Assembly: GCA_002699085.1 (NCBI GenBank)
Contig: PAAR01000028.1
Coordinates: 1 to 64,000 of the forward strand
Direction: 5' to 3'
DNA from: Micavibrio sp.
GTDB lineage: Bacteria > Pseudomonadota > Alphaproteobacteria > Micavibrionales > UBA9664
Length of the DNA stretch: 64,000 bases
The notes beneath the pieces were generated by a model. It saw nothing but the letters and a program-made list of their open reading frames with translations. It searched no databases and was not told the DNA's origin. Numbering within the stretch: the stretch's first letter is position 1; each line of letters begins with the position of its first letter. Positions 4,309 through 23,307 of the stretch are shown here, piece by piece. The translations under genes were made by a program, and so were the position numbers.

Positions 4309-5166
4309 TTATCCATAATTTACGAAAGCAGCAGTTAAGATTAGGGCTAATTTTGCCTCTGACCGCGTATAGAGCTTTTCCCCGCCTTCACTCTTAGAAT
4401 GGTGAGCTTGGTGAGTATAGTGCCTCAAAGCCCCCCAAATAGCTCCCGCTCGATCCTCTTTATTCATTTCGTTTCTAGCGTTTTTATCGAGTTTATCTAG
4501 CAGAACATTAGACCAGCTTTTCTTGCCGTAACGCATTTGCCCAGTTTCTTGAATAACATCTCTACAGGTTGATACACATGCCCGGTATTCTCTATTTACA
4601 AAATGCTTCTGAGCTTCTTCTAAATGCTCCTTAATATCTATCCACTCATCAGATACATCTTTTGGGAGCATGGGGACTTCAAGTAGCAGTATGTCCATAT
4701 AATCTGCCTGTTTTAATCTGTCCACCCAATCTGATCGAGAGATCTTTACACGCCATTCATCATGTACAGGGTTCGTATACTCGCCATCTCCTCCTATTCC
4801 TTTAATCATGATTTTGAACTCAATATCATGACCATCGCGTATTTCTTCTAGCTTAGAAAGCTGAGCCCCAACGAGAGGTAAATGAAAAGTGATCTGAGCA
4901 TGTATAGAACGATCAGGATGTGTTTCTACAGACAGAGGCGTTTCCAAATGAGCCAATCCTAAATCATATTCCCGGCTTTTAGCCGTTTTTGCATGAACTC
5001 TCGCCGTGCTTATGGTGGCCCAGCGTTTCTTCCCATTACGCTCGGGAAGCCCCTGCAAACTAAAGTTAAAATTTAACTCATATCCTGCCAACAAAGACTT
5101 TAGCCAAATTTGCTCTCTATTAGATTCTGCAATAATCATACTGTTTACGGTTATGCTTCCACCCAT
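4309..5166 (-). CDS. HEPN-like C-terminal domain protein, 285 aa
   Basis: The N-terminal ~170 residues are beta-rich and unrecognised. The C-terminal ~110 residues are helical, with EEAQKHFVNREYRACVSTCR followed by RHYTHQAHH and an LALILTAAFV helix, which resembles HEPN/Abi_C folds where an R-x3/4-H motif marks an RNase site. It is the last gene of the five-gene operon headed by a radical SAM enzyme (24-nt gap from the ParB-like gene). A role as RNase effector or partner of the NTPase is inference. Confidence 0.5.
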   Translation of the reverse strand: MGGSITVNSMIIAESNREQIWLKSLLAGYELNFNFSLQGLPERNGKKRWATISTARVHAKTAKSREYDLGLAHLETPLSVETHPDRSIHAQITFHLPLVGAQLSKLEEIRDGHDIEFKIMIKGIGGDGEYTNPVHDEWRVKISRSDWVDRLKQADYMDILLLEVPMLPKDVSDEWIDIKEHLEEAQKHFVNREYRACVSTCRDVIQETGQMRYGKKSWSNVLLDKLDKNARNEMNKEDRAGAIWGALRHYTHQAHHSKSEGGEKLYTRSEAKLALILTAAFVNYG

Positions 5167-11705: not shown

Positions 11706-12551
11706 CTATTCACCATAAGCAGTGCTCGCAAAAAAATCTTTATGATTGGGGGCTAAAAGATGCTTTTTGTTCATGTTGTCTAATAATTTATATTTCTCAA
11801 TTAGAGGCTTAAATTTCTTTCCATTTTCAGTAAGGGAATTATAAAATAAGCATAGCAATTCTTGATCTGATAATTGGGACCTGACAAGGCGTATGTAGGT
11901 AATCTTCTCTGTGGAGCTTTCGTCTATAAAACGTATTAAGTTGTATAAATATCTGTAGTAGTGACCTAAGATCCGGTTATTCTCATCCCAAAAGCTCTTA
12001 TATGCCTGTCGAATAGTTTTTAATTCATCTCCCGTATAAGGCGCAGCTTTCTTATTCTTTTTGTTTTTATAAATTTCACTAAAGTCGGTATATAAATGAT
12101 TGAAGCAACTTCGTCCTATATCTTCTACATTTTTCCTCTTTTGAGTTTTTTTCTTATAAGCCAAAGAGTTTACAATGGAATTATGTAAGGAGAGCATTTG
12201 AAAGAAAGTACTCTCAAAAATTTGCTTTTGAATATAGGTATTTTGATTATCCAAAGCGTTTGCTGATCTAGAAAATTCTTTTCTGGCTTCTTTTAATTCT
12301 GTTTGCTGGAGGATAATCGTTATCAATAATCCTATAAATGTTAAGAAGGTTAGTAATGGGTTTAATAGTCCACCTATAAAGTCACCGTAAGGACCCCATG
12401 TGCTTGGTTGTATAAAGACAGAGAAAGTAAAAACAGATAAGAGAATTATGAGAGCGGTTATAAACAAGCCAAACATAGCATTCTGAGTATTTTCACTTTG
12501 CTTGTTAATGTCTTCACTAATACCTATAATATTTTTGAATAATTTTTTCAT
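11706..12551 (-). CDS. Membrane-anchored phage abortive infection protein (PutAbiC-like)
   Basis: 281 residues. Two hydrophobic helices near the N-terminus (about 28-50 and 62-82) surround GPYGDFIGGLLNP, then a charged coil (QQTELKEARKEF). The helical C-terminal part has ESTFFQMLSLHNSIV and HYYRYLYNLIRFID, typical of the putative phage abortive-infection family PF16872. It lies 3 nt downstream of hsdR and is the last gene of the type I R-M operon, so it probably acts as a back-up to restriction. Confidence 0.75.
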   Translation of the reverse strand: MKKLFKNIIGISEDINKQSENTQNAMFGLFITALIILLSVFTFSVFIQPSTWGPYGDFIGGLLNPLLTFLTFIGLLITIILQQTELKEARKEFSRSANALDNQNTYIQKQIFESTFFQMLSLHNSIVNSLAYKKKTQKRKNVEDIGRSCFNHLYTDFSEIYKNKKNKKAAPYTGDELKTIRQAYKSFWDENNRILGHYYRYLYNLIRFIDESSTEKITYIRLVRSQLSDQELLCLFYNSLTENGKKFKPLIEKYKLLDNMNKKHLLAPNHKDFFASTAYGE

Positions 12552-12554
12552 CTT

Positions 12555-15386
12555 TTAATCCACACCATCAATAAAAGTCTCCACAAAGTCTTTGATTCTA
12601 GTGATAACTCTTTCCGCGATGCTTGATCTTTCTTTCAAAGAGGGTCGCTCCTTCATAATTCCAATAACGTCGTCCTTTAAAGGTGTCTTTTCAGTAAATA
12701 GATAATTACCTAGGACTTTATCCAACCCTTCAGGATCAAGGCCTTCTTCTTTGCTCATAGCATCCAGCGCTTTGCGTTTTTCTTCTGTCCAGTATGAATC
12801 AAATTCTTCGCTCACATCAGCGTTCGCTGGCATATCAGCAAAATGCTGAGATATGAATTTTTCTATTAACTCTTTTTTACTTCTAAGCTGAGTTTCGGTA
12901 TCCAGAATATCTATAATAGCCTTACGAGCTTTTGCTTGGTCTTCAGGTTTTTTACCCTTCATATTTTGTAAAAGCTTTATGATATAGCTGACGTTAATTT
13001 TGTCGCGGCTAATAAGCTCAATCTCAAAATCAATATCATCAAGAATTGATACTTTTTCCTTTTCCTTCTCACTACGAACTTTATCGTATAAATCCAGATA
13101 TTTGCTACGGAAATCGGCAAAAAGTTGCTCATCCATAGGCAAATCATCAAAAGTAAATTGGGTAAAGCAGTCCAGTACGTTCTTTATGCGAATGATTTCA
13201 CGGAAGGCTTGAATAAATTTGGCCTCATCTTCTTCCGTAAGAAGGGCATCAACACTGGCAACATCCGGCGTAATAGCCAGAAGATTGGCGACAGTTTGTT
13301 CAAATTTCGTGACATAATCTTCATAAGGCGCAAGGATAATGTCCTCCTGCGCCTCTTTATTGGCGAAAAGCTCAATAGCCTTATCGGTTGCTGGTTTCAA
13401 ATTACGGAAGCAAACAACATTACCTTGTGATTTTTTCTGCCCCATAGTCCGGTTTGTTCGTGAGTAGGCTTGCAGCAAACCATGATATTTCAGGTTCTTA
13501 TCAACATAGATTGTGTTCAAGGGTTTACTATCAAAGCCAGTCAGGAACATATTCACGACCAGAAGAATATCAATTTCCTTATTCTTAACGCGCTTACCTA
13601 TATCCTTGTAATAAGCATAGAAAAGCTTGCTATCCTTCGTAGAATAATTCGTGCTAAACATCTTGTTATAATCGACAATATATTCATCCAGTTTTTCGCG
13701 GCTGTGCTTATTCACTGGGGCGGTATCATCAGGCATATCATCGCCCGTTCCCATGCCATCAGCATCCGCGTCTTCTTCATTAGCCTGATAGGAAAAGATC
13801 GTGGCAACTTTCAAATTATGCTCTCCTGCCTCTTTCTTGGCGCGGAATAATTCATAGTAAGCCGTAAGAGTTTTGATATTAGATACACAAAACATAGCCG
13901 TAAATTCTTGACTATGCGTTTTTCGGTCATGGTTGGCGATAATGTAATCTGTGATTTTTTCTAGGCGCTCTGGTGCTTCCATTACCTCCACCGTATCAAT
14001 TGCCTCTACCTCAATATCAACGACCTTATCCTTCTTTTTGAAGGTGCGGATATATTCGACAGAAAATTTCAGGACGTTTTCATCACGGATAGCATCCGTA
14101 ATCACATAGCTATGAAGCTGCTGCTCAAACAAGTCTTTGGTGGTGCGCTTACCCAAAGCGTTCTTAGAGGCGTTGTCTGCAAAAATAGGTGTTCCGGTGA
14201 AACCAAACATCTGCACATTTTCAAAGTATTCCTTAATGCGCTTATGCGTATCACCAAATTGGCTACGGTGACATTCATCAAAGATGAACACCATTTTTTT
14301 ATCTTTTAAGCCTTCCATCGTTTTAAGATGGCGGTCTTTACTAATCGCCGTATTCAGTTTTTGCAACGTGGTTACAATCAACGGCGTGTCATTACCAAAC
14401 TGTTCCACAAGCTTGCTGGTGTTTTTTGTCGCGTCAACGCTGCCTTCTTGGAAAGCGTTAAATTCTGCAATCGTCTGATAGTCTAGGTCTTTACGGTCAA
14501 CGACAAAAACAACTTTATGAACCTTCGGATTCTGGGTCAGTATTTGCGCGGCCTTAAACGAAGTCAGCGTTTTCCCTGAACCTGTCGTATGCCAGATATA
14601 GCCGTTCTTGTTAGTGGTAAGAACCTGCGCGACAATTGCTTCTACCGCATAATACTGGTATGGGCGCAAAGCCATCAGCATTTGATGGCTTTCGTTCAAA
14701 ACAATGTATTTTGTAATCATCTTGGAAAGTTTGCACTTCTCAAGAAATTCATCGGCAAACTCGCTAAGTTGCGTGATGCGCTTGTTCTTCTTGTCCGACC
14801 AGAAAAACGTCTGCTTAAAATCACGCTTATTTACGGGATTATTCGCGTAATATTTCGTATTCACGCCGTTACTAATCACAAACATCTGAATATAGCCAAA
14901 CAAGCCATATCCCGCCGCAAAGCTATGTCTATGATAGCGGTTGGTCTGGTTAAAGGCCTCTTTCATTTCAAGGCCGCGCCGCTTTAGCTCGATCTGGCAA
15001 AGCGGCAAGCCATTAACTAAAAGCGTCACGTCATAACGATTGGTATATTTCCCGACCATCGTGATTTGATGCGTGACCTGATATTCATTCTTGCACCATT
15101 GGACTTGGTTAATCAGCTCGATATAGCCCGTTGTTCCATCGTCCTTGGTGTAATCAACTTTATCGCGCAGGATTTTGGCTTTTTCAAAAATATTCCCGCG
15201 CGCCAGCTTGTTCAAAATTTGTTTGAACTCATAATCAGAAAACAGAACCTTGTTATGTTTTTCCAATTGCCGCTTGAGATTGACCAGCAGATCATCCTCA
15301 TTGGCAATCACAACCTTTTCCCAGCCTAGTGTTTCAAGCTGGGCAACAAGCGCATTTTCTAATTGTTGTTCGGTCTGCGTGTTCAT
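12555..15386 (-). CDS. hsdR: Type I restriction endonuclease subunit R
   Basis: 943 residues. The N-terminal nuclease domain has the D...E/QxK arrangement (RYDVTLLVNGLPLCQIELKRRG). The SF2 translocase has Walker [12 protein letters not shown], the DEAD-like box [16 protein letters not shown], and the helicase motif QAYSRTNRT. It cleaves DNA after ATP-driven translocation, in a complex with the modification subunits. Its ATG overlaps the stop of the Abi_C gene (ATGA). Confidence 0.93.
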   Translation of the reverse strand: MNTQTEQQLENALVAQLETLGWEKVVIANEDDLLVNLKRQLEKHNKVLFSDYEFKQILNKLARGNIFEKAKILRDKVDYTKDDGTTGYIELINQVQWCKNEYQVTHQITMVGKYTNRYDVTLLVNGLPLCQIELKRRGLEMKEAFNQTNRYHRHSFAAGYGLFGYIQMFVISNGVNTKYYANNPVNKRDFKQTFFWSDKKNKRITQLSEFADEFLEKCKLSKMITKYIVLNESHQMLMALRPYQYYAVEAIVAQVLTTNKNGYIWHTTGSGKTLTSFKAAQILTQNPKVHKVVFVVDRKDLDYQTIAEFNAFQEGSVDATKNTSKLVEQFGNDTPLIVTTLQKLNTAISKDRHLKTMEGLKDKKMVFIFDECHRSQFGDTHKRIKEYFENVQMFGFTGTPIFADNASKNALGKRTTKDLFEQQLHSYVITDAIRDENVLKFSVEYIRTFKKKDKVVDIEVEAIDTVEVMEAPERLEKITDYIIANHDRKTHSQEFTAMFCVSNIKTLTAYYELFRAKKEAGEHNLKVATIFSYQANEEDADADGMGTGDDMPDDTAPVNKHSREKLDEYIVDYNKMFSTNYSTKDSKLFYAYYKDIGKRVKNKEIDILLVVNMFLTGFDSKPLNTIYVDKNLKYHGLLQAYSRTNRTMGQKKSQGNVVCFRNLKPATDKAIELFANKEAQEDIILAPYEDYVTKFEQTVANLLAITPDVASVDALLTEEDEAKFIQAFREIIRIKNVLDCFTQFTFDDLPMDEQLFADFRSKYLDLYDKVRSEKEKEKVSILDDIDFEIELISRDKINVSYIIKLLQNMKGKKPEDQAKARKAIIDILDTETQLRSKKELIEKFISQHFADMPANADVSEEFDSYWTEEKRKALDAMSKEEGLDPEGLDKVLGNYLFTEKTPLKDDVIGIMKERPSLKERSSIAERVITRIKDFVETFIDGVD

Positions 15387-16066
15387 TCTTCGTCTGTTTC
15401 AAATTCTAATTTATAATCACCAAGCTCTATCCGATATATTTGCGGCTCTTGGTCAAATAATGCCTTACTATATAAAACAGTGTTAGGCATCGGACTGGCC
15501 TCATCAAGATAATCATTAAATGCTGGATTGTCTTCGTATAACAAAACGTCATCTTGCACTTGATGGAATTTTGTCAGCATATAAGAACACATACTGTCGG
15601 TTAAACCTATAATAAGCTCCGCAAGAGCTTCATCATTTACCTGTGTTTTTAAAGGTGTTCGCCCATGACTAATATCACCATGCTCGGTTCTTATTGTTCC
15701 TATTCTTGCAACAACTTCGGGATTCAGTAATTGTTCTAGGATATTGGCAATATTGCCATATTTTTCAACAATGCCGTCTTCATAAACGATTTCACTACGG
15801 CTTGCCTCAATACGCTTTTTTAGGGCGTTACGAGCCTCTTTAAAAAGCTTCGAAAGAGAAAGGTCTCGATTTTTAAAATAGCTTTCAGGGGTTTGCTCCA
15901 GCTCCATCAAGATAAGCTTGGATAAACCCTCTATAATAGCCTTGCAGGTTTCTATTGTAATATCGGGTTTTTCGGCAACGTAATTGTCTATGGTGTCGAG
16001 AAGTTCTTTATAATACTGGGCATCAAAGTGCCTTGCTTCTTTTAATTCACTGCGAAATCTCTCCAT
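15383..16066 (-). CDS. Abortive infection Abi_C-domain protein
   Basis: 227 residues. The centre contains RIGTIRTEHGDISHGR, which matches the conserved R(N/T)xxGDxHGR core of the Abi_C (PF14355) HEPN-like family. The surrounding helices fit this fold. It is located between hsdM/S and hsdR with 10-nt and overlapping junctions, so it is an integral operon member. In this family, the domain is thought to act as an RNase in phage exclusion; activity here is inferred. Confidence 0.7.
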   Translation of the reverse strand: MERFRSELKEARHFDAQYYKELLDTIDNYVAEKPDITIETCKAIIEGLSKLILMELEQTPESYFKNRDLSLSKLFKEARNALKKRIEASRSEIVYEDGIVEKYGNIANILEQLLNPEVVARIGTIRTEHGDISHGRTPLKTQVNDEALAELIIGLTDSMCSYMLTKFHQVQDDVLLYEDNPAFNDYLDEASPMPNTVLYSKALFDQEPQIYRIELGDYKLEFETDEE

Positions 16067-16076
16067 TCATTCCGCC

Positions 16077-18245
16077 CTAAACAAACATCTGTTGCAACAA
16101 GCCTTTTTTGAAGGTCTTTGCTTTATCCAGCTCTTCGGAAATCAAAGCAATCTTATCATCTATGGCAGAAAGGAAATCAGCGATTTTCTTTTGTTCGTCT
16201 GGATGAGGCATCATAGTCTTGATCTGTTCGATTGTTTTTTTGGAAAGACTTGGAACACCTGACGCTTCATTATACTTTTGCCAGTCAATAGATAGAAAAA
16301 CATAGTAAATAAACTTAGGTATGGCACTCTTAAACGAATGTGTAAAAAACAGTGTATCCACTGTCCAAAATTTTCCAGTTAAAAATCTCGGTTGATCTAT
16401 TGTTCCTTTTCGACCGATACAGACGCTTTCACCATCGTAAAGCCACTCATTTACAGAGGTCATATACCCTCCCGTGCCATAAACAGGAACATCACCATCA
16501 GCCAAATGTTTGTAATCGCGACCACTGCCAATAGTAAGGACATCACCTAATTTCTTTTCTTTCCATTCGGGGAAAGGCTTCCCTTTGTCATCGGTGAAGC
16601 GGATTTCTTGTGAAAAGAGTTTCTGCATACAACCTTTTTTGAACAGCCTAAGAAGATATAAATTTGTTCCTGCTGGTTCTGGAATATTTAAAATCTGGCA
16701 GAAATTAGAAATGGATTCATCCACTTTTACCTTTGCATCTTCAAACTTGATAAGCTTACCAGCCAGAGCATCCAAATCAATCTGCTCTTCTTCCTCGGAC
16801 GTATCAACGTAACGCAGGATATTGAGGTTATAATCATTTTCAGCGATCTCACTTAACGGCGCGGTATAGGCGTATTTATCAACGCTTTCGCGTTTCGTAT
16901 ACGCCTCAATAATTTTGGTAACATTGTCGTCGGTTAGCTTGTTTTTATTACCGTCTTTTTCAAAATCCGCGCTCGCATCAATGAATAAAATATCATCATC
17001 ATGCTTTCGGCATTTTTTAAACACCAGAATACACGCAGGGATAGACGTGCCGTAAAAAATATTCGGCGGCAGACCAATCACAGCATCCAGATAATTCTGT
17101 TCCTTGATAATATATTCGCGAATTATCCCTTCCGCGCCGCCACGGAACAGAACACCGTGCGGCAGAACAATCGCGCCCGTGCCGTTATCAGCAAGTTGGT
17201 GGATTATATGCTGCACAAATGCAAAATCAGCCTTTGAAGATGGCGGAAGCGCTCCATATTGGCTGAATCTGTCATCAGTTTCATTCAGCGGGTTATCTTT
17301 ACCCTTCCATTGCGCCGAGAACGGAGGGTTAGCAACAATCGCTTCAAACTCCATGCCTTCGTGCTGCGGCTCTTCCAGCGTATCTTCTTGCTTAATATCA
17401 AAACGGCTGAAATGCACATCATGCAAAATCATATTCATACGGCAAAGGTTGTAAGTCGTGCGGTTTAATTCCTGTCCGAAAAATTCACCTACTTTGGTTT
17501 CTCTGCCTATACGCAAAAGCAATGAACCAGAACCGCAAGCGGGGTCATAAGCGTTTTTGATCTGCCCTTTGCCCAGTGTCACAATCTTGGACAAAATTTT
17601 TGACACCTGCGAAGGTGTATAAAACTCGCCCGCCTTTTTACCCGCGCCGGATGCAAATTGAGCAATCAGATATTCATAGGCGTCACCCAAAACATCGGAT
17701 TCAATTTCATCCAGCCTAAAGTCCACCGCATCAAGATGTGCGAGGACTTTGGCGATCAAAGTATTCCGTGCGGCTGGGCTGCGCCCCAGCTTTGTACTGG
17801 CAAGATCAATGTCTTCAAAGAGCTTGTTAAAATCATCCTCGCTCTCATTGCCCATTGTGCTTTGCTCAATGGCGTTAAGGATGGATTGTAAATCTTCGAG
17901 AATGAAGTTATCGGTCGCGTCTTCATCCTCTTCATCAATTTTGATGTTTCCTTTTTCGGTCAGAGCGCCAAACAATTCGTGAGGCGCAAGAAAGTAACCC
18001 AGCTTTTCCAAAGTCTCTTCCTTGATTGCCTCAAGATCGTCTTTGTCAGTTACCAGCGCATAATCTTTTACGTTCTCGGTTTCGAGCAATTTATTGGCGA
18101 AAAGATATTGTTTTTCGGATAGGTATTTATAGAAAATGAACCCTAGAATGTAATCGCGGAACTCGTCTGCGCCCATCTTGCCACGTAATTCATTAGCAAT
18201 CTTCCATAGCTGGGCTTCCAGTTTTTGCTTTTGTTCTTCTGTCAT
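16077..18245 (-). CDS. Type I methyltransferase HsdM fused to half an HsdS specificity subunit
   Basis: Residues 1 to about 500 are an N6-adenine methyltransferase: an N-terminal helical domain (LWKIANELRGKM), SAM site [14 protein letters not shown] and catalytic ANPPF. Residues from about 540 are the central conserved region and a single C-terminal target recognition domain of HsdS (KKGCMQKLFSQEIRF, WKEKKLGDV), ending with the second conserved helix (IDDKIALISEELDKAKTFKKGLLQQMF). Normal HsdS carries two such domains in a separate gene. The fusion probably arose by deletion of the hsdM/hsdS junction plus TRD1, and may dimerise to recognise a symmetrical site. Confidence 0.82.
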   Translation of the reverse strand: MTEEQKQKLEAQLWKIANELRGKMGADEFRDYILGFIFYKYLSEKQYLFANKLLETENVKDYALVTDKDDLEAIKEETLEKLGYFLAPHELFGALTEKGNIKIDEEDEDATDNFILEDLQSILNAIEQSTMGNESEDDFNKLFEDIDLASTKLGRSPAARNTLIAKVLAHLDAVDFRLDEIESDVLGDAYEYLIAQFASGAGKKAGEFYTPSQVSKILSKIVTLGKGQIKNAYDPACGSGSLLLRIGRETKVGEFFGQELNRTTYNLCRMNMILHDVHFSRFDIKQEDTLEEPQHEGMEFEAIVANPPFSAQWKGKDNPLNETDDRFSQYGALPPSSKADFAFVQHIIHQLADNGTGAIVLPHGVLFRGGAEGIIREYIIKEQNYLDAVIGLPPNIFYGTSIPACILVFKKCRKHDDDILFIDASADFEKDGNKNKLTDDNVTKIIEAYTKRESVDKYAYTAPLSEIAENDYNLNILRYVDTSEEEEQIDLDALAGKLIKFEDAKVKVDESISNFCQILNIPEPAGTNLYLLRLFKKGCMQKLFSQEIRFTDDKGKPFPEWKEKKLGDVLTIGSGRDYKHLADGDVPVYGTGGYMTSVNEWLYDGESVCIGRKGTIDQPRFLTGKFWTVDTLFFTHSFKSAIPKFIYYVFLSIDWQKYNEASGVPSLSKKTIEQIKTMMPHPDEQKKIADFLSAIDDKIALISEELDKAKTFKKGLLQQMFV

Positions 18246-18324
18246 AAAATTTCATTTAAACGATTAATAAAATTAAGCTTAACTGATTGCTCTTCGCTTA
18301 ACAAACCTGAAATAACCCAATTTT

Positions 18325-18341
18325 TGTCAAGTGCTTGTCAA
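18325..18341 (-). promoter_or_regulatory. Candidate -35 elements of the hsd operon
   Basis: On the minus strand two TTGACA hexamers are 11 nt apart (18336-18341 and 18325-18330); a TTGTTA-like -10 lies about 17-20 nt further downstream. A third TTGACA is at 18414-18419. They are suitable for starting the type I R-M operon. The -10 match is weak. Confidence 0.35.
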
Positions 18342-18450
18342 CACAAAACAAGAAAAAATATGTCCTAAGATGTTGAAAAATAATAGTTTTATACGTTCTT
18401 CTTTTCTTTTTCTTGTCAATACAAATAAATTTTATCTCGCTAGAGGTGTT

Positions 18451-18757
18451 ATGCGGTCGAGCGGCACCCGCATATAGTCCCCCAGGAAGAACCTAAGACC
18501 CCACCCTTCACCTTTTCGTTGCTAAATCTTTCACAACATAATACCTTTGCGATAGAGCTTTCTAAGTGGAAAGCTTCGGGGCTAGTTACCTCTTTCTAGG
18601 CGGCCTAATAGCATCAGGCCGTTATCAATGATGCTGCTTTCTCGACGTATGGTCGGGGAGCAGCGGAATATAATAGCGCCTAGCGTGAATACGCTGGCCG
18701 TTCCTAGAGCGGTAACTACTCCCCGGCTGCCAAGAGTAATCTTGGTGGCTTTTTTAT
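18451..18757 (+). ncRNA. Candidate highly structured non-coding RNA or 5' leader
   Basis: Five hairpins and a long closing stem can be drawn by eye. H1 is ATGCGG/CCGCAT (18451-18456, 18468-18473). H2 is AGCTTTC/GAAAGCT (18556-18562, 18569-18575). A closing stem of GGGG, TAGTTACC and TCTAGG (18578-18600) pairs with CCTAGA, GGTAACTA and CCCC (18703-18724). It encloses hairpins at 18601-18621, 18633-18664 and 18682-18695. A terminator-like hairpin plus U-tract follows at 18725-18755. It could be a stand-alone RNA or an attenuator for the zinc-ribbon gene 20 nt downstream. It matches no RNA family I know (not tmRNA, SRP or RNase P). Confidence 0.6.
18725..18755 (+). terminator. Rho-independent terminator of the structured RNA
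   Basis: GGCTGCCAAG and CTTGGTGGCT pair as a 10-bp stem (with wobbles) around AGTAAT, followed by six T residues. It lies 22 nt before the start codon of the zinc-ribbon gene. Confidence 0.7.
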
Positions 18758-18776
18758 TAATAGCTATAAGGAGAAA

Positions 18777-19256
18777 ATGATGACACTTATGAAATGTAAA
18801 GAATGCGACCATCAAGTAGCGCAAAATGCTTTTAGCTGCCCTAATTGCGGGGCACATAACCCGACAAAAGCCGGAGAGGGGTTTTTGAAAGGTTTTTTTA
18901 TCTTTATCGGGGCAATCTTTTTCGCCCTCGTGCTTTTTATGTCTTTAGCATCAGCCAATGAAACTGATAAGAATGTTTTAGCTGCAAAGAATGAGATTAA
19001 AGGAGAGCAGAAAGTAATTGATGTCTATTACGATCCCAGCGCAGCTGTTCAATGGCACATAGGCGTATATGACGACGGCTCTAAACGCCACGGTTACGCT
19101 TCCTACATTTGTGATATTTTATATGAACACGCATTGGTAAGAAGCGATACGTCTGTTCGCATAGTGGATATAAAAAGAGTGAAGCAAGGCCAGTCTTTTC
19201 GCGAAACTAGCCTTGGTCGGGTTAATTGCTCTAATTACCAGCAATATGCCCCCTAA
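18777..19256 (+). CDS. Zinc-ribbon membrane protein, 159 aa
   Basis: The N-terminus has two CxxC pairs (KCKECDHQ and SCPNCGAHN), a zinc ribbon of about 25 residues. One transmembrane helix follows (about 38-62, FFIFIGAIFFALVLFMSLASA), then a ~100-residue soluble domain with three cysteines, probably periplasmic. An AAGGAG ribosome binding site precedes the start. Function unknown. It is the only plus-strand gene in the island and stands directly after the structured RNA. Confidence 0.7.
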   Translation: MMTLMKCKECDHQVAQNAFSCPNCGAHNPTKAGEGFLKGFFIFIGAIFFALVLFMSLASANETDKNVLAAKNEIKGEQKVIDVYYDPSAAVQWHIGVYDDGSKRHGYASYICDILYEHALVRSDTSVRIVDIKRVKQGQSFRETSLGRVNCSNYQQYAP

Positions 19257-19569
19257 AGGATGTCTATGTACTTTGGTTAAGTTGGCTCTTTTTTTCTGAA
19301 GGAAAATGACCCACGTTGTTTTTAAGCCTAAATAAAGCAATTTTTTATGACAGCGTCGTTAAAAAGGACTTTATTCCCTTTCTCAATTACAAGGATAAAG
19401 AAAGAACTATCATCTGAAAATAGCCATAGCTATGGTATATATATGCGGTTCTATGTTGGAACCATTCATATGATTTTTATGGCGTGACGGGTTCTTAAAT
19501 GAAACCATGAGTGGAAATTTTCATTATGTGGAAAAACTATGGTTTCAATATAAAACCGAAAATATAAAT
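19257..19569. other. Convergent intergenic region with repeated AACCAT motifs
   Basis: No gene is seen. It contains the perfect palindrome CCATAGCTATGG (19424-19435), GGAACCAT (19458-19465) and the inverted pair TGAAACCAT (19500-19508) / ATGGTTTCA (19539-19547). The shared core AACCAT in both orientations looks like a cluster of protein binding sites next to a Rep-like gene. Confidence 0.4.
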
Positions 19570-20088
19570 TTAGGGTCCATTTAGATACCGTTCTTCTATT
19601 TTTCTTTGGTGGTCTTCTTTAAATTCTTCGGTATCAGAAATATCTTCCACAAAAGGTTTGCGTGCCCTTTTGCGCTTTTGAGTCTTTGCCTCTTTCCAGT
19701 CATGTGTAGGCTCATAGCCCTCAGAATGAACAAAAGTTAGTTCCCAATCACTTGCTTTACGACCCAGAAAAGTGCCTTTCTTTTTTAACTTCAAGAAACC
19801 AAAGTATTGTAGCTCTTCGCAAGCTCTTAAAGCCGTTGCTTTACCCATCTTTAAGTCTTTTGCTATTTCATCATACGAGGCTGTAATTTTACCATTATTA
19901 AAGCCGGTATGTTTAGTGCATAGATAAAGAAGTACTTTAATAGAAGCCCCTTTCAGTGCCATGAAGTTAGGATGTTTAATCATACCGTATTTTAATTTTA
20001 CAAATTGTTCTGAACTATAGGCTTGTCGGCCCTTCGCATTTATATTCTTTTTCACTTTATAAGGTCTGGTTTGACGGTTCTTGGTCAT
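19570..20088 (-). CDS. Winged-helix replication-initiator-like protein
   Basis: About 172 residues, basic. The middle carries a winged-helix with GASIKVLLYLCTKH, GKITASYDEIAKDLKMGKATALRACEELQ and FGFLKLKKKG, typical of small Rep-type or MarR-like proteins in P4-like islands. The chosen ATG overlaps the stop of the alpA gene by ATGA, which supports translational coupling. An alternative upstream start 14 codons earlier would run into alpA. Role in island replication or regulation is inferred. Confidence 0.55.
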   Translation of the reverse strand: MTKNRQTRPYKVKKNINAKGRQAYSSEQFVKLKYGMIKHPNFMALKGASIKVLLYLCTKHTGFNNGKITASYDEIAKDLKMGKATALRACEELQYFGFLKLKKKGTFLGRKASDWELTFVHSEGYEPTHDWKEAKTQKRKRARKPFVEDISDTEEFKEDHQRKIEERYLNGP

Positions 20089-20273
20089 GATTGAGACTCT
20101 ATAAGTTCTCGAATATCTTTGACGCGCCAAGCTGTAATTTTAGGGCCTAGTTTTACAGGTGCTGGAAAACGGCCATCTTTCACACCTGCCCACCAAGTGG
20201 AACGAGATACTGGAAAAACTTTTAAAACGTCTGGCAATCTGATAAAGCCGGTTTCTGGGATATTGTTGTGCAT
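20085..20273 (-). CDS. alpA: AlpA-family excisionase/transcription regulator
   Basis: 62 residues: GFIRLPDVLKVFPVSRSTWWAGVKDGRFPAPVKLGPKITAWRV spans a MerR-like helix-turn-helix and wing, the AlpA signature. The start is fixed by an AGGAG ribosome binding site (20279-20283) 5 nt before the ATG. AlpA proteins in P4-like islands activate the integrase or act as excisionase. It is two genes from the integrase end of the island. Confidence 0.85.
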   Translation of the reverse strand: MHNNIPETGFIRLPDVLKVFPVSRSTWWAGVKDGRFPAPVKLGPKITAWRVKDIRELIESQS

Positions 20274-20362
20274 ATGAACTCCTTTGGTTGTTATAGAGTC
20301 CATTTTTATAGGAAGTGGGTTCTAATACCCGGCATCTTGAAATTTTATTTTTATGCCGCTTT

Positions 20363-21274
20363 TTATGTTTGCTCCTCAGCAACTAAACAAATCATGAATT
20401 GGAGATAATCATTGCTAGTAATCTTTTTTGCTATTCTTTGCGTGCTTCTTCTTACACTTTCTTCGTCCTTTTCTGGATCCTCAAAGATTGCATCTGCCAA
20501 CACCCTATTAGATATTTTTTGGGTATGTTCCAGCGCCCATATGCGTAAATCTAAATATGGTATGATGCCAAAATCACACCAAGCCTTATATTTGGGGCGC
20601 TTGAACGCAAACGACCGTCTTAAATCAGGAAAATTCTTACGTGTAGACTTTATGTACGTTTCAAACTGGCTTTTAAGAACATGGTCGGGCTGAGAGAAGT
20701 CTATTTCAACCATATCTCTTGATCGCATGAAGGTTCTTGTGGCGTGATTAGGTTTATAATTTCCTCGTGTCTTCAAAACTTCAAATAGAGGAGTACGTAG
20801 AATTTCTTCACATAAAGATACATCTTCAGTACTAAGGTTATGTTCTTTACTCTCATAATAACTATCCATCAAATGACGGGTTTTTATGCGGGTATCATTT
20901 TCCACAAACCGTTCTTTTTGGTAAATGTCATTCAATGTTATGGGCTTTATTGAGAAAAGCATTTTCTTGAATTCTGCCCTACGTTTTTTCATTGCCCACA
21001 TTTGAGTTCCACCGAAGAAATCCAGCGCTTCATTATCTTCTGGAGAAAACAATGGATCCTCTCTCAGCGCCTTTATATTCTTCTGAATCAGAGAAGATGT
21101 ATGATATTTTTTTGATTTAACTGCTGCAAATGACTCTAATAGCTCTAAATGGCACGCTCGTTGTACTAAAGCGTAGTACCAACCTTCATTATTAAGCTTT
21201 CTGAAAGGCTTGTATTTATCTAAATTATACCACTTTGGCAGATCATTTTCATTCTTTACGGTTATCTGTTTCAT
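20363..21274 (-). CDS. DUF6387-like protein, 303 aa
   Basis: A soluble, helical, charged protein starting MKQITVKNENDLPKWYNLDKYKPF, which from memory resembles the DUF6387 family found in proteobacterial islands near integrases. No catalytic motif is evident. It starts 10 nt after the stop of the preceding gene and is probably in the integrase-led operon. Confidence 0.6.
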   Translation of the reverse strand: MKQITVKNENDLPKWYNLDKYKPFRKLNNEGWYYALVQRACHLELLESFAAVKSKKYHTSSLIQKNIKALREDPLFSPEDNEALDFFGGTQMWAMKKRRAEFKKMLFSIKPITLNDIYQKERFVENDTRIKTRHLMDSYYESKEHNLSTEDVSLCEEILRTPLFEVLKTRGNYKPNHATRTFMRSRDMVEIDFSQPDHVLKSQFETYIKSTRKNFPDLRRSFAFKRPKYKAWCDFGIIPYLDLRIWALEHTQKISNRVLADAIFEDPEKDEESVRRSTQRIAKKITSNDYLQFMICLVAEEQT

Positions 21275-21284
21275 GCGAAGCTCT

Positions 21285-21836
21285 TTATGTCTTGGTTTTA
21301 TTTTCTTTCAGGTGTTTTGTTACTGACCTTAAAGCGTCTATAAATTCCAGCGCAAAACCTTTGTCATACCTAACTGCACGGCTTTCGTAAGAATAGCGCC
21401 ACTTCTCATACGCATCGGCGATTTTATAGAGTTGTTGCTCAAAGACATCTGTTACAGGAGGGCCTTTTTTATTAAGAGGCGGATAGACTTTGGGTATTTC
21501 CATAGAATAAAAACTTATGGTTTTTATTATGGCGGGCTCTTGCCTTATTTTATGTTTAACATCCTTTGGCAAATTTCTAAAAAGTTTTAATATATTATGG
21601 CCTTGAGGGGCTTTTCCTCTCGTAATAGAGTGTAAATATTTAATATAAAGTTCTATAGAGAAAGCTAAACATGTAATCCCAGCGCTTCCTGTAGGAGCAC
21701 CTCCATATGCTGTTTTACTTACTAACGGTTTGCCATTCAATTGACCGAGCTTTTTGATTACAGCTTGCTCGTTCTCTTCTAAAATTCTATAGGCATTAAA
21801 GAAATCATCCGCCTGCATTTTTATCAGCCAAGACAT
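21285..21836 (-). CDS. HEPN-like helical protein, 183 aa
   Basis: A helical protein containing CLAFSIELYIKYLHSI and GHNILKLFRNLP, the look of a HEPN-type four-helix bundle. It lacks a clear RxxxxH nuclease motif. Its ATG follows the integrase stop codon with no gap, so it is co-transcribed with the integrase and with the DUF6387-like gene downstream. Function unknown. Confidence 0.5.
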   Translation of the reverse strand: MSWLIKMQADDFFNAYRILEENEQAVIKKLGQLNGKPLVSKTAYGGAPTGSAGITCLAFSIELYIKYLHSITRGKAPQGHNILKLFRNLPKDVKHKIRQEPAIIKTISFYSMEIPKVYPPLNKKGPPVTDVFEQQLYKIADAYEKWRYSYESRAVRYDKGFALEFIDALRSVTKHLKENKTKT

Positions 21837-23066
21837 CTAAGCTTTCTTTCTCTTGCTAAAATCTCCAGCAATTACGATTCTGTTTTTAGCTATATCATCC
21901 AAATAATCAGCCCATTCTTGCATCATTTTAGTACGTTCATCTAAAAATTTTGCACGGTCATAAGCCTTGGCCACATCTCCACGCTTAGAGTGCGCCAGTT
22001 GCGCGTCTGGCACTTCATGCCTGTAGCCTAATTTTTCCATTATTGTACTCATAGCCAGTGCTCTAAAGCCATGACCTGTCATCCTACCCTTATAGCCCAT
22101 GCGTTTTATAGCCATAAGAACCGTGTTATTACTCATATGACTATTCCGCTGGGTGCGACTAGGGAAAACATATTTTGGATGGTTATGTATCTCCCGTAAC
22201 TCTTCTAATATGGCTATAACTTGTTTTGATAGAGGCACTATATGATCTTTATTCATTTTCATGCGTTGCGCTGGGATAATCCATTGCTTTTCTTTAAAAT
22301 CAAACTCTGACCATTCAGCTTTTATCATTTCATTGGTACGTACAAAGGTAAGCATCATAAAATTAACAGCCAAATAGGTCTGTCTATTTAATTTTGCTCT
22401 ATGGTTACGCAAGTCTTGGATAAATTCGGGTATCTCACGCGTTTCAATGGCCGCAAAATGTCCTTTGGGCTTTACTTTAATTAATCCTTTTAGGTCTTCC
22501 GCAATGTTTTTCTCGGCTCGCCCAGTGATAATGGCATATTGAAAGATATGCTTACACATCTGAATGATACGTTTTGCCAGCTCATTTGCTCCTCGTTCTT
22601 TGACAGCGTTAGCCATGTCCAAAAGCATTTTATGCGTAAGTGTTTTTATCGGGTATTTGCCAATAATAGGAAAAACATCTTTCTCTAATCTGGCTAGTAT
22701 GTTTTTGGCATGATCCGGTTTCCAGCTAGGCTTATTGTTCTCAAACCATTCCAGCGCAATAGCTTCAAAAGTATTAGCGTTTTCTTGTATTTTTTCTTTT
22801 TTTATCTCTTGCCTAATCACTGAGGGGTCAAGATCATCAGCTAGTAGTTTTTTAGCCTCGTCTCGTTTATCTCTGGCATCAGATAGGCTAACAATGGGAT
22901 AGGGGCCAAAGGCTAACTTCTTTTCTTTACCTAGATGGCGGTATTTAAGTTTCCAAAGCTTGGAGCCTGTTTTTGTAATTAAAAGGAAAAGGCCCCCACT
23001 ATCAAATAGTTTATAGTCTTTATCTTGGGGCTTTGCGTTGTCACAAGCTAGTTTGGTTAATGCCAT
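21837..23066 (-). CDS. int: P4-type tyrosine integrase
   Basis: 409 residues. The N-terminal DUF4102-like arm-binding domain (KDYKLFDSGGLFLLITKTGSKLWKLKYR split across it) is followed by a core-binding domain and a catalytic domain with R (FVRTNEMIKAEW), K, HGFRALA (H-x-x-R) and a C-terminal AHSKRGDVAKAYDRA (H and Y nucleophile). It is transcribed away from tRNA-Glu, whose 3' end lies 166 nt upstream. This is the usual arrangement for an island integrated in the tRNA 3' end. Confidence 0.93.
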   Translation of the reverse strand: MALTKLACDNAKPQDKDYKLFDSGGLFLLITKTGSKLWKLKYRHLGKEKKLAFGPYPIVSLSDARDKRDEAKKLLADDLDPSVIRQEIKKEKIQENANTFEAIALEWFENNKPSWKPDHAKNILARLEKDVFPIIGKYPIKTLTHKMLLDMANAVKERGANELAKRIIQMCKHIFQYAIITGRAEKNIAEDLKGLIKVKPKGHFAAIETREIPEFIQDLRNHRAKLNRQTYLAVNFMMLTFVRTNEMIKAEWSEFDFKEKQWIIPAQRMKMNKDHIVPLSKQVIAILEELREIHNHPKYVFPSRTQRNSHMSNNTVLMAIKRMGYKGRMTGHGFRALAMSTIMEKLGYRHEVPDAQLAHSKRGDVAKAYDRAKFLDERTKMMQEWADYLDDIAKNRIVIAGDFSKRKKA

Positions 23067-23099
23067 CTCTGGGGGCTTCCTATATTGCCTATTTTAAAA

Positions 23100-23118
23100 A
23101 GCCCCCTCATAAGCCCCC
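23100..23118. repeat. Paired GCCCCC repeat near right island end
   Basis: AGCCCCC occurs twice, 12 nt apart, matching the pair at 4274-4292. An inverted copy (GGGGGCT) is at 23071-23077. They lie between the integrase start and tRNA-Glu, where arm-type sites are expected. Confidence 0.4.
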
Positions 23119-23231
23119 AAAAATTCTGGATTTGGTAAAACTACATCGGATAGCTTGGGACAAATAATATCCTGAAACCCTTGTAAAATCAATATATTTT
23201 GGACTAAATTGGATTAGAAAAATCAATAAAT

Positions 23232-23307
23232 TGGCATCCCGTACGGGATTTGAACCCGTGTTGCCGCCGTGAAAGGGCGGTGTCCTAGGCCACTAGACGA
23301 ACGGGAC
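23232..23307 (-). tRNA. tRNA-Glu (anticodon UUC)
   Basis: 76 nt including an encoded CCA. The acceptor stem GTCCCGT pairs with ACGGGAT; the anticodon loop CTTTCAC gives UUC; the T-arm is ACGGG-TTCAAAT-CCCGT. The 3' end faces the integrase and serves as the likely attachment site of the island to its left. Confidence 0.95.

Follow-up and report, generated by a model that had tools for sequence, protein, structure and literature searches.

The C4 RNA of phages P1 and P7 silences the gene that follows it. Its leader is cleaved by RNase P at a GGW start, and the loops a' and b' pair near the ribosome-binding site (RBS) (PMC5320573). The family sRNA-Xcc1 (RF02221) is classed as a trans-acting sRNA and has been linked to virulence and to integron cassettes. 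sRNA-Xcc1 is an 88-nt RNA with RACE-mapped ends that has been detected on Northern blots (PMC2996969). It lies upstream of symE in the same orientation and occurs in integron cassettes (PMC12444791). Our search of the literature for a link between sRNA-Xcc1 and C4 found no paper drawing it, and the one paper found to name both RNAs gives them as separate annotations (PMC12189769).

Here we analyse an RNA in a 64,000-nt stretch of a Micavibrio sp. contig, the whole of which we call the window. On balance, we favour the combined statement that this RNA is the leader of the gene at 18777, that it is a C4-like RNA precursor and that its output is transcription termination. The window copy lies within a tRNA-Glu-associated integrative island (11706-23307), which also contains a DUF6387 gene and the following genes. 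The ends of the island show no direct repeat of at least 18 bp within 10-24 kb.

11706-12551 and 15383-16066: two Abi-like proteins
12555-15386: HsdR of a type I restriction system
16077-18245: fused HsdM-HsdS of a type I restriction system
20085-20303: AlpA-like regulator
21837-23066: integrase

Extent and structure of the RNA

The first-pass annotation described a folded RNA with a terminator at 18451-18757. Comparison with homologues places the conserved RNA at approximately 18553-18755. The folded, conserved RNA and its 3' end therefore stand, but the limits shift, as the first 100 nt (18451-18550, including the first hairpin) are unconserved in homologues. BLAST matches with relatives begin at approximately 18576 (query position 147) and run to the terminator; the 5' end of the RNA most likely lies near 18553. 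The interval that separates the RNA from the HsdM start (18440-18550) contains a short GC-rich hairpin (ATGCGG...CCGCAT), unconserved in homologues, and is possibly the hsdM promoter side.

The region 18430-18770 (+) folds at -127.6 kcal/mol, compared with -98.1 +/- 5.1 kcal/mol for dinucleotide shuffles (z -5.8). The reverse complement is also stable (z -4.3), so folding energy does not settle the strand. The (+) assignment follows from conservation and from the positions of the promoter, terminator and gene. The decisive evidence for the RNA is comparative rather than energetic, and a real structured RNA is almost certainly present at approximately 18553-18755. Its parts are as follows.

18519..18547 (+): candidate promoter TTGCTA-17 nt-TACCTT with a weak -10, from the window sequence and the homologue pile-up
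18554..18576 (+): P0, a hairpin at the predicted 5' end whose sequence varies among copies (-9.7 kcal/mol)
18578..18600 (+): b1/a1 region, a GGGG hairpin and the a1 strand (permutation tests, 0/1000 each)
18583-18588 (+): b1, the loop TAGTTA of the GGGG hairpin, pairing with 18713-18718
18593-18600 (+): a1, TTTCTAGG, pairing with a' CCTAGAG at 18703-18709
18583-18590 and 18711-18718 (+): closing-stem helix TAGTTACC : GGTAACTA, covarying in homologues
18600..18635 (+): H-type pseudoknot (covariation and permutations)
18600-18605 and 18617-18622 (+): pseudoknot helix GCGGCC : GGCCGT (0/1000 permutations)
18610-18615 and 18630-18635 (+): crossing pseudoknot helix AGCATC : GATGCT (0/1000 permutations)
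18637..18660 (+): P3 hairpin CTTTCTCGAC / GGTCGGGGAG (0/1000 permutations; -10.6 kcal/mol)
18651..18736 (+): sRNA-Xcc1-like domain (RF02221 1-87/87), the predicted mature RNA starting GGT
18651-18660 and 18719-18728 (+): acceptor-like stem GGTCGGGGAG / CTCCCCGGCT (-17.3 vs -14.4 kcal/mol permuted, 0/1000)
18661..18696 (+): P4 CAGCG/CGCTG, internal loop GAATATAATA / GAATA and hairpin P5 (covariation)
18698..18718 (+): P6 (CCG/CGG), loop arm a' CCTAGAG (18703-18709) and arm b' TAACTA (18713-18718)
18725..18755 (+): intrinsic terminator GGCTGCCAAGAG-TAAT-CTTGGTGGC-TTTTTT (-13.05 vs -7.77 kcal/mol permuted, 0/1000)
18729-18732 (+): GCCA after the acceptor-like stem, the two together a candidate RNase P site (NCCA in 68/93 homologues)
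18768..18776 (+): ribosome-binding region, with the Shine-Dalgarno (SD) sequence AAGGAG at 18768-18773
18777..19256 (+): downstream gene, 159 aa, with an N-terminal zinc ribbon and a transmembrane segment

Covariation was assessed on a set of 18 copies, covering 45 pairs in 9 helices. Standard pairs fill 95.8% of the cells, 23 of the 45 pairs show double changes, and none of 500 shuffles was as good as the observed pairing. When the partners were slid by 1-3 columns as a control, pairing was 31-51%. The H-type pseudoknot is paired in 98-100% of cells, with double changes, and P4 is paired in all cells, with double changes in 4 of its 5 pairs. The internal loop of P4 (GAATAYAAYA/GAATA) is near-invariant among the copies. 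A subclass of five loci (L171, L174, L183, L189 and L196) contains TATGTCCAG / CTAAA in place of the internal loop AATAYAAYA/GAATA, which recalls the 11-nt tetraloop receptor.

We also compared the pairing of each copy's own arms with arms permuted from other copies (73 copies, 1000 permutations). Eight helices were never matched by a permutation: b1:b' (-3.17 vs -0.85 kcal/mol permuted), a1:a' (-7.24 vs -2.16 kcal/mol), the acceptor-like stem, P3, the two pseudoknot helices, P4 and the terminator. The pairing of GCGGCC with the distal GGCCGTT, which served as a control, was ruled out, with 201 of 1000 permutations as good. The arms pair although their sequences are highly diverse, with 68 distinct forms of a1 and 51 of a' among the 73 copies.

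Base pairs including three pseudoknots thus covary strongly across homologues, so the lack of covariation that the first-pass annotation named as refuting it is not seen. The long closing stem it described is confirmed, as both of its helices covary and none of 1000 permutations reaches the observed value. The U-tract terminator is likewise present (18725-18755, 11 bp, -15.8 kcal/mol, followed by TTTTTT). A single nested fold is incomplete, however, since the homologues support pseudoknots that are invisible to an energy fold.

The strand 18651-18660 belongs to both P3 and the acceptor-like stem, and each of the two helices covaries; a change in the shape of the RNA is therefore expected. The outer bases of the acceptor stem (GGCT) and the GCCA form part of the 5' arm of the terminator. 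Because the base of the terminator shares bases with it, the acceptor stem excludes P3 together with the terminator.

Leader position and spread among genomes

The homologues share a common layout. The pentamer TTGA[CA] is concentrated 54-51 nt before the start of the RNA model, and the best -10 sites fall at -40 to -26. In 93 homologues, P0 has a mean energy of -9.4 kcal/mol compared with -4.8 kcal/mol for shuffled sequences, NCCA follows the acceptor-like stem in 68, and a U-tract follows the last hairpin in 79. The weak -10 of the window copy is a point against our preferred reading.

An SD with an ATG and an open reading frame of at least 40 codons lies 5-40 nt past the RNA in 86 of 117 loci, mostly at 10-30 nt. 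The same arrangement is found at 182 of 5850 random positions (3.1%) and at 1 of 117 loci on the divergent side. The RNA is directly followed by a co-directional gene with an SD, with the terminator between them. The first-pass reading of a cis-acting leader of the next gene is strongly supported by these counts, and we hold it very likely that the RNA is the leader of the downstream gene. The spacing of a leader also holds in the window, but the distance from the final T of the U-tract to the ATG at 18777 is 21 nt rather than 20 nt.

The protein encoded at 18777..19256 matches PHROG 7191 (E 5.5e-15), and its Pfam zinc-ribbon matches are below the cut-off. A search for relatives of this zinc-ribbon protein found none. 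Clustering of 100 downstream proteins gave 72 unrelated clusters, 24 with lipobox-like starts. This diversity indicates a leader module and not the partner of one gene family. Pfam and PADLOC assign the proteins to DUF2846, Sel1, HTH, GIY-YIG, DNA methylases including HsdM, and others. PADLOC matches are a minority, and a defence-specific RNA was rejected. The earlier interpretation therefore survives as a cis leader, and the 72 unrelated clusters lend no support to its link to a defence island.

BLAST with the window RNA found matches in 25 of 55 genomes of the same order. A covariance model (R1), built from 18 copies, detected copies in 97 of 142 genomes from this order, which includes Micavibrio and is probably Micavibrionales; the copies cover 45 of 54 genera and number up to 9 per genome. 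In a sample of 385 genomes from the class Alphaproteobacteria, a few of which belong to the same order, it was found in 39. Named contigs with the core motif are mostly labelled 'Micavibrio sp.' or are unclassified alphaproteobacterial assemblies. A single copy is present in the window genome. Plasmids and phages searched by BLAST with the window RNA gave no match. The copies are patchy and multi-copy, and are located on islands and proviral contigs; the best BLAST match is in another family (86%), and a copy of the same genus is at 75%.

Locus L181 contains two back-to-back copies, 4454-4647 (-) and 4778-4957 (+), separated by 130 nt and each fronting its own gene; one of the two scores above the RF02221 cut-off. 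At four further loci (L082 and L083, both viral contigs, L012 and L069) the RNA fronts a small phage or provirus gene of approximately 70 aa ('TPLQAGL...AAELRMMAAGD...'), which is seen in Micavibrio-type and Methylosinus sequences.

Relation to sRNA-Xcc1 and the C4 layout

At the gathering threshold, Rfam reports only tRNAs in the window, so no family passes the cut-off at the RNA. In a permissive search, 18651-18736 (+) matches RF02221 over model positions 1-87 of 87 with 39.2 bits (E 2.2e-5), below the curated cut-off of 53 bits. The match is full-length, on the same strand and with the same structure. Formal membership of RF02221 is unsupported, though the relation is supported, and the label 'unassigned' was half right: the 3' half is a sub-threshold relative of this family. 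Six homologous loci likewise give sub-threshold matches (36.5-46 bits), and the alphaproteobacterial locus L181 passes RF02221 at 56.2 bits while scoring 116.9 with R1. The R1 and RF02221 families are continuous, and the window RNA is very probably related to RF02221. Rfam gave no match to the C4 families (RF01695 and relatives), with the window searched up to E 10 and the RF02221 loci up to E 5. ARAGORN and Rfam found no tmRNA or tRNA at the RNA; three tRNAs lie elsewhere in the window. The window copy bears C4-type features, namely the GGT start and the acceptor-like stem with its GCCA, a candidate RNase P site; the GGN start, acceptor stem and NCCA are conserved among homologues.

RF02221 was found in 62 of 398 Pseudomonadota genomes. 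We read 30 genome loci and five phage or plasmid loci; in 30 of 30 the strand of the RF02221 match is that of the motif. Upstream of the Rfam core, these members also contain the b1 hairpin and a1 strand. Where the next gene encodes a prophage antirepressor or SymE, a second copy of a1/b1 (a2, b2) flanks the SD, typically as two blocks with the SD between, and is predicted to be able to pair with the same internal arms a'/b'. In L230, the upstream copy is GGGGCCGAAAACCCCTTCAACAAGCGG, the internal arms are CTTGTTG-CGG-TTTTCGG, and the downstream copy is CCCGAAAA-GGAG-CAACAAG-acc-ATG. In L230, L220, L203 and others, a hairpin resembling a terminator (CCGCACCCGWCAG...GCGG-T5-7) lies 100-60 nt upstream of the RF02221 core, in the 5' domain where the window branch has the pseudoknot.

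Across the 35 loci, the duplex between the a'-b' arm and the downstream UTR has an energy of -20.7 kcal/mol when both come from one locus and of -15.7 kcal/mol when they are mismatched (0/2000 permutations). Only 2 of the 35 arms have their own UTR as the best partner of all, since sequences are shared among related loci, and it is the test on the whole group that supports the pairing. A clear a2/b2 is missing from several loci (e.g. L204, L213, L222). A longest-common-substring test of upstream against downstream copies was weak and noisy in RF02221 and gave nothing in the alphaproteobacterial branch, and duplex energies were used in its place.

Many RF02221 members are followed by genes for Rha, KilA-N, Bro-N, AntA, P22-type antirepressors (P22 AR) or the SymE toxin. 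C4-like action in these members is likely. Our data suggest that, in many loci, RF02221 corresponds to the mature portion of a cis leader resembling C4, with SymE toxins and prophage antirepressors as the products under its control. Such a leader would account for the 88-nt length of sRNA-Xcc1, its defined 5' end and its place upstream of symE, and offers a testable answer to how symE is regulated in Xanthomonas cassettes.

The Micavibrio-type branch differs. No a2/b2 copy was found within approximately 400 nt downstream, and matched and mismatched duplex energies are equal. An antisense copy at the downstream RBS was rejected for these loci, as the arms fit the UTR and early coding region no better than mismatched ones. 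Since the copy is absent, direct antisense control of the next gene is unsupported in this branch. These copies retain a1:a' and b1:b' pairing within the RNA (-19.8 vs -11.4 kcal/mol), and the terminator occupies the place of the a2/b2 segment. The most economical reading is that the expression platform has moved from translation to transcription. For the window copy itself, terminator-based control is slightly favoured.

Proposed action and comparison with known systems

In the proposed mechanism, transcription would start near 18553 and yield P0, the b1-a1 segment, the pseudoknot domain, the compact domain and the terminator. The compact domain would start with GGU, be closed by the tRNA-acceptor-like stem and end in (N)CCA; its arms a' and b' complement a1 and b1. 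Once processed, the domain of RF02221-branch members in other Proteobacteria would pair with a2/b2 around the SD and silence the next gene, as C4 does. In the Micavibrio-type branch, the acceptor stem would give read-through and an RNase P site, and P3 with the terminator a premature end. The comparisons show the conserved covarying structure, the relation to RF02221, the position as a leader, the a1:a' and b1:b' pairing, the a2/b2 copies of RF02221 members and the terminator. RNase P cleavage, silencing, the exchange between acceptor stem and terminator, and whatever tips it, are what we infer. A broader and more doubtful proposal is that the RNase P-type, tRNA-acceptor-like stem acts as antiterminator in a leader RNA that pairs with itself. 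Alphaproteobacteria might then have turned a C4/Xcc1-type RNA from RBS silencing into a modular transcription switch, with its own matched arms in each copy, placed before dozens of unrelated accessory genes.

Three other explanations were weighed. The pseudoknotted 5' domain could bind a small molecule or second messenger and control the terminator before many genes, as an orphan riboswitch. The 72 unrelated downstream clusters are as expected of a second-messenger riboswitch, and the mutually exclusive covarying helices with a terminator and the near-invariant internal loop would also fit. However, a1/b1 and a'/b' differ in almost every copy, which fits guide-like pairing better than one ligand pocket, the RF02221 branch is antisense-like, and the downstream genes share no pathway and indicate no ligand. 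We therefore regard this explanation as unlikely; no evidence points to a small-molecule riboswitch.

An independent trans-acting sRNA gene, to which the downstream gene is incidental, would account for the promoter-like site and terminator of the RNA, for the filing of RF02221 as an sRNA and for the 88-nt Xcc1 RNA on Northern blots (PMC2996969). It is improbable given the frequency of a same-strand SD and ATG 5-40 nt on (86/117 vs 3.1%), with no room left for a second promoter. The patchy, multi-copy distribution on islands and proviral contigs, the closer match in another family (86% vs 75% in the same genus) and the occurrence of Xcc1 in integron cassettes (PMC12444791) would suit a MITE- or cassette-like mobile element, folded as DNA for recombination and fronting cargo genes. 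Against it, the promoter, terminator and SD positions are conserved, the element is one-sided relative to the genes, the region lacks direct repeats of at least 18 bp, and the GNRA/CUUG-type loops, like the intrinsic terminator, suggest a function as RNA, making such an element highly improbable.

The C4-like leader thus remains our preferred reading. It turns an isolated RNA into a large class of leader RNAs, present in 97 of 142 genomes of the order. It also offers a testable reason for the association of this RNA with mobile genes, in that it would silence genes that have just been acquired.

Among known systems, type III toxin-antitoxin loci (ToxIN) share the order of promoter, pseudoknotted RNA, terminator and gene, but the window RNA has no repeats and no common downstream toxin. 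Attenuators and riboswitches (e.g. for c-di-GMP) are also structured leaders with a terminator before many different genes; the window RNA differs in having copy-specific pairing arms and not one conserved pocket. RF02221 has the same closing stem, P4 with internal loop and P6, and likewise fronts a gene on the same strand. Its Rfam model represents the mature part only, whereas the window RNA adds the H-type pseudoknot 5' domain and a terminator after the domain, and is without the a2/b2 copy at the SD. C4 (P1, P7; RF01695) differs in its internal hairpins and in the lack of an Rfam C4 match to our RNA, and the alphaproteobacterial branch is without the RBS copy and ends in a terminator. Both are leader RNAs upstream of the controlled gene, with arms a' and b' and a compact domain that starts with GGN and is closed by a stem (the RNase P site in C4), and the RF02221 members share with C4 the short complementary blocks around the RBS.
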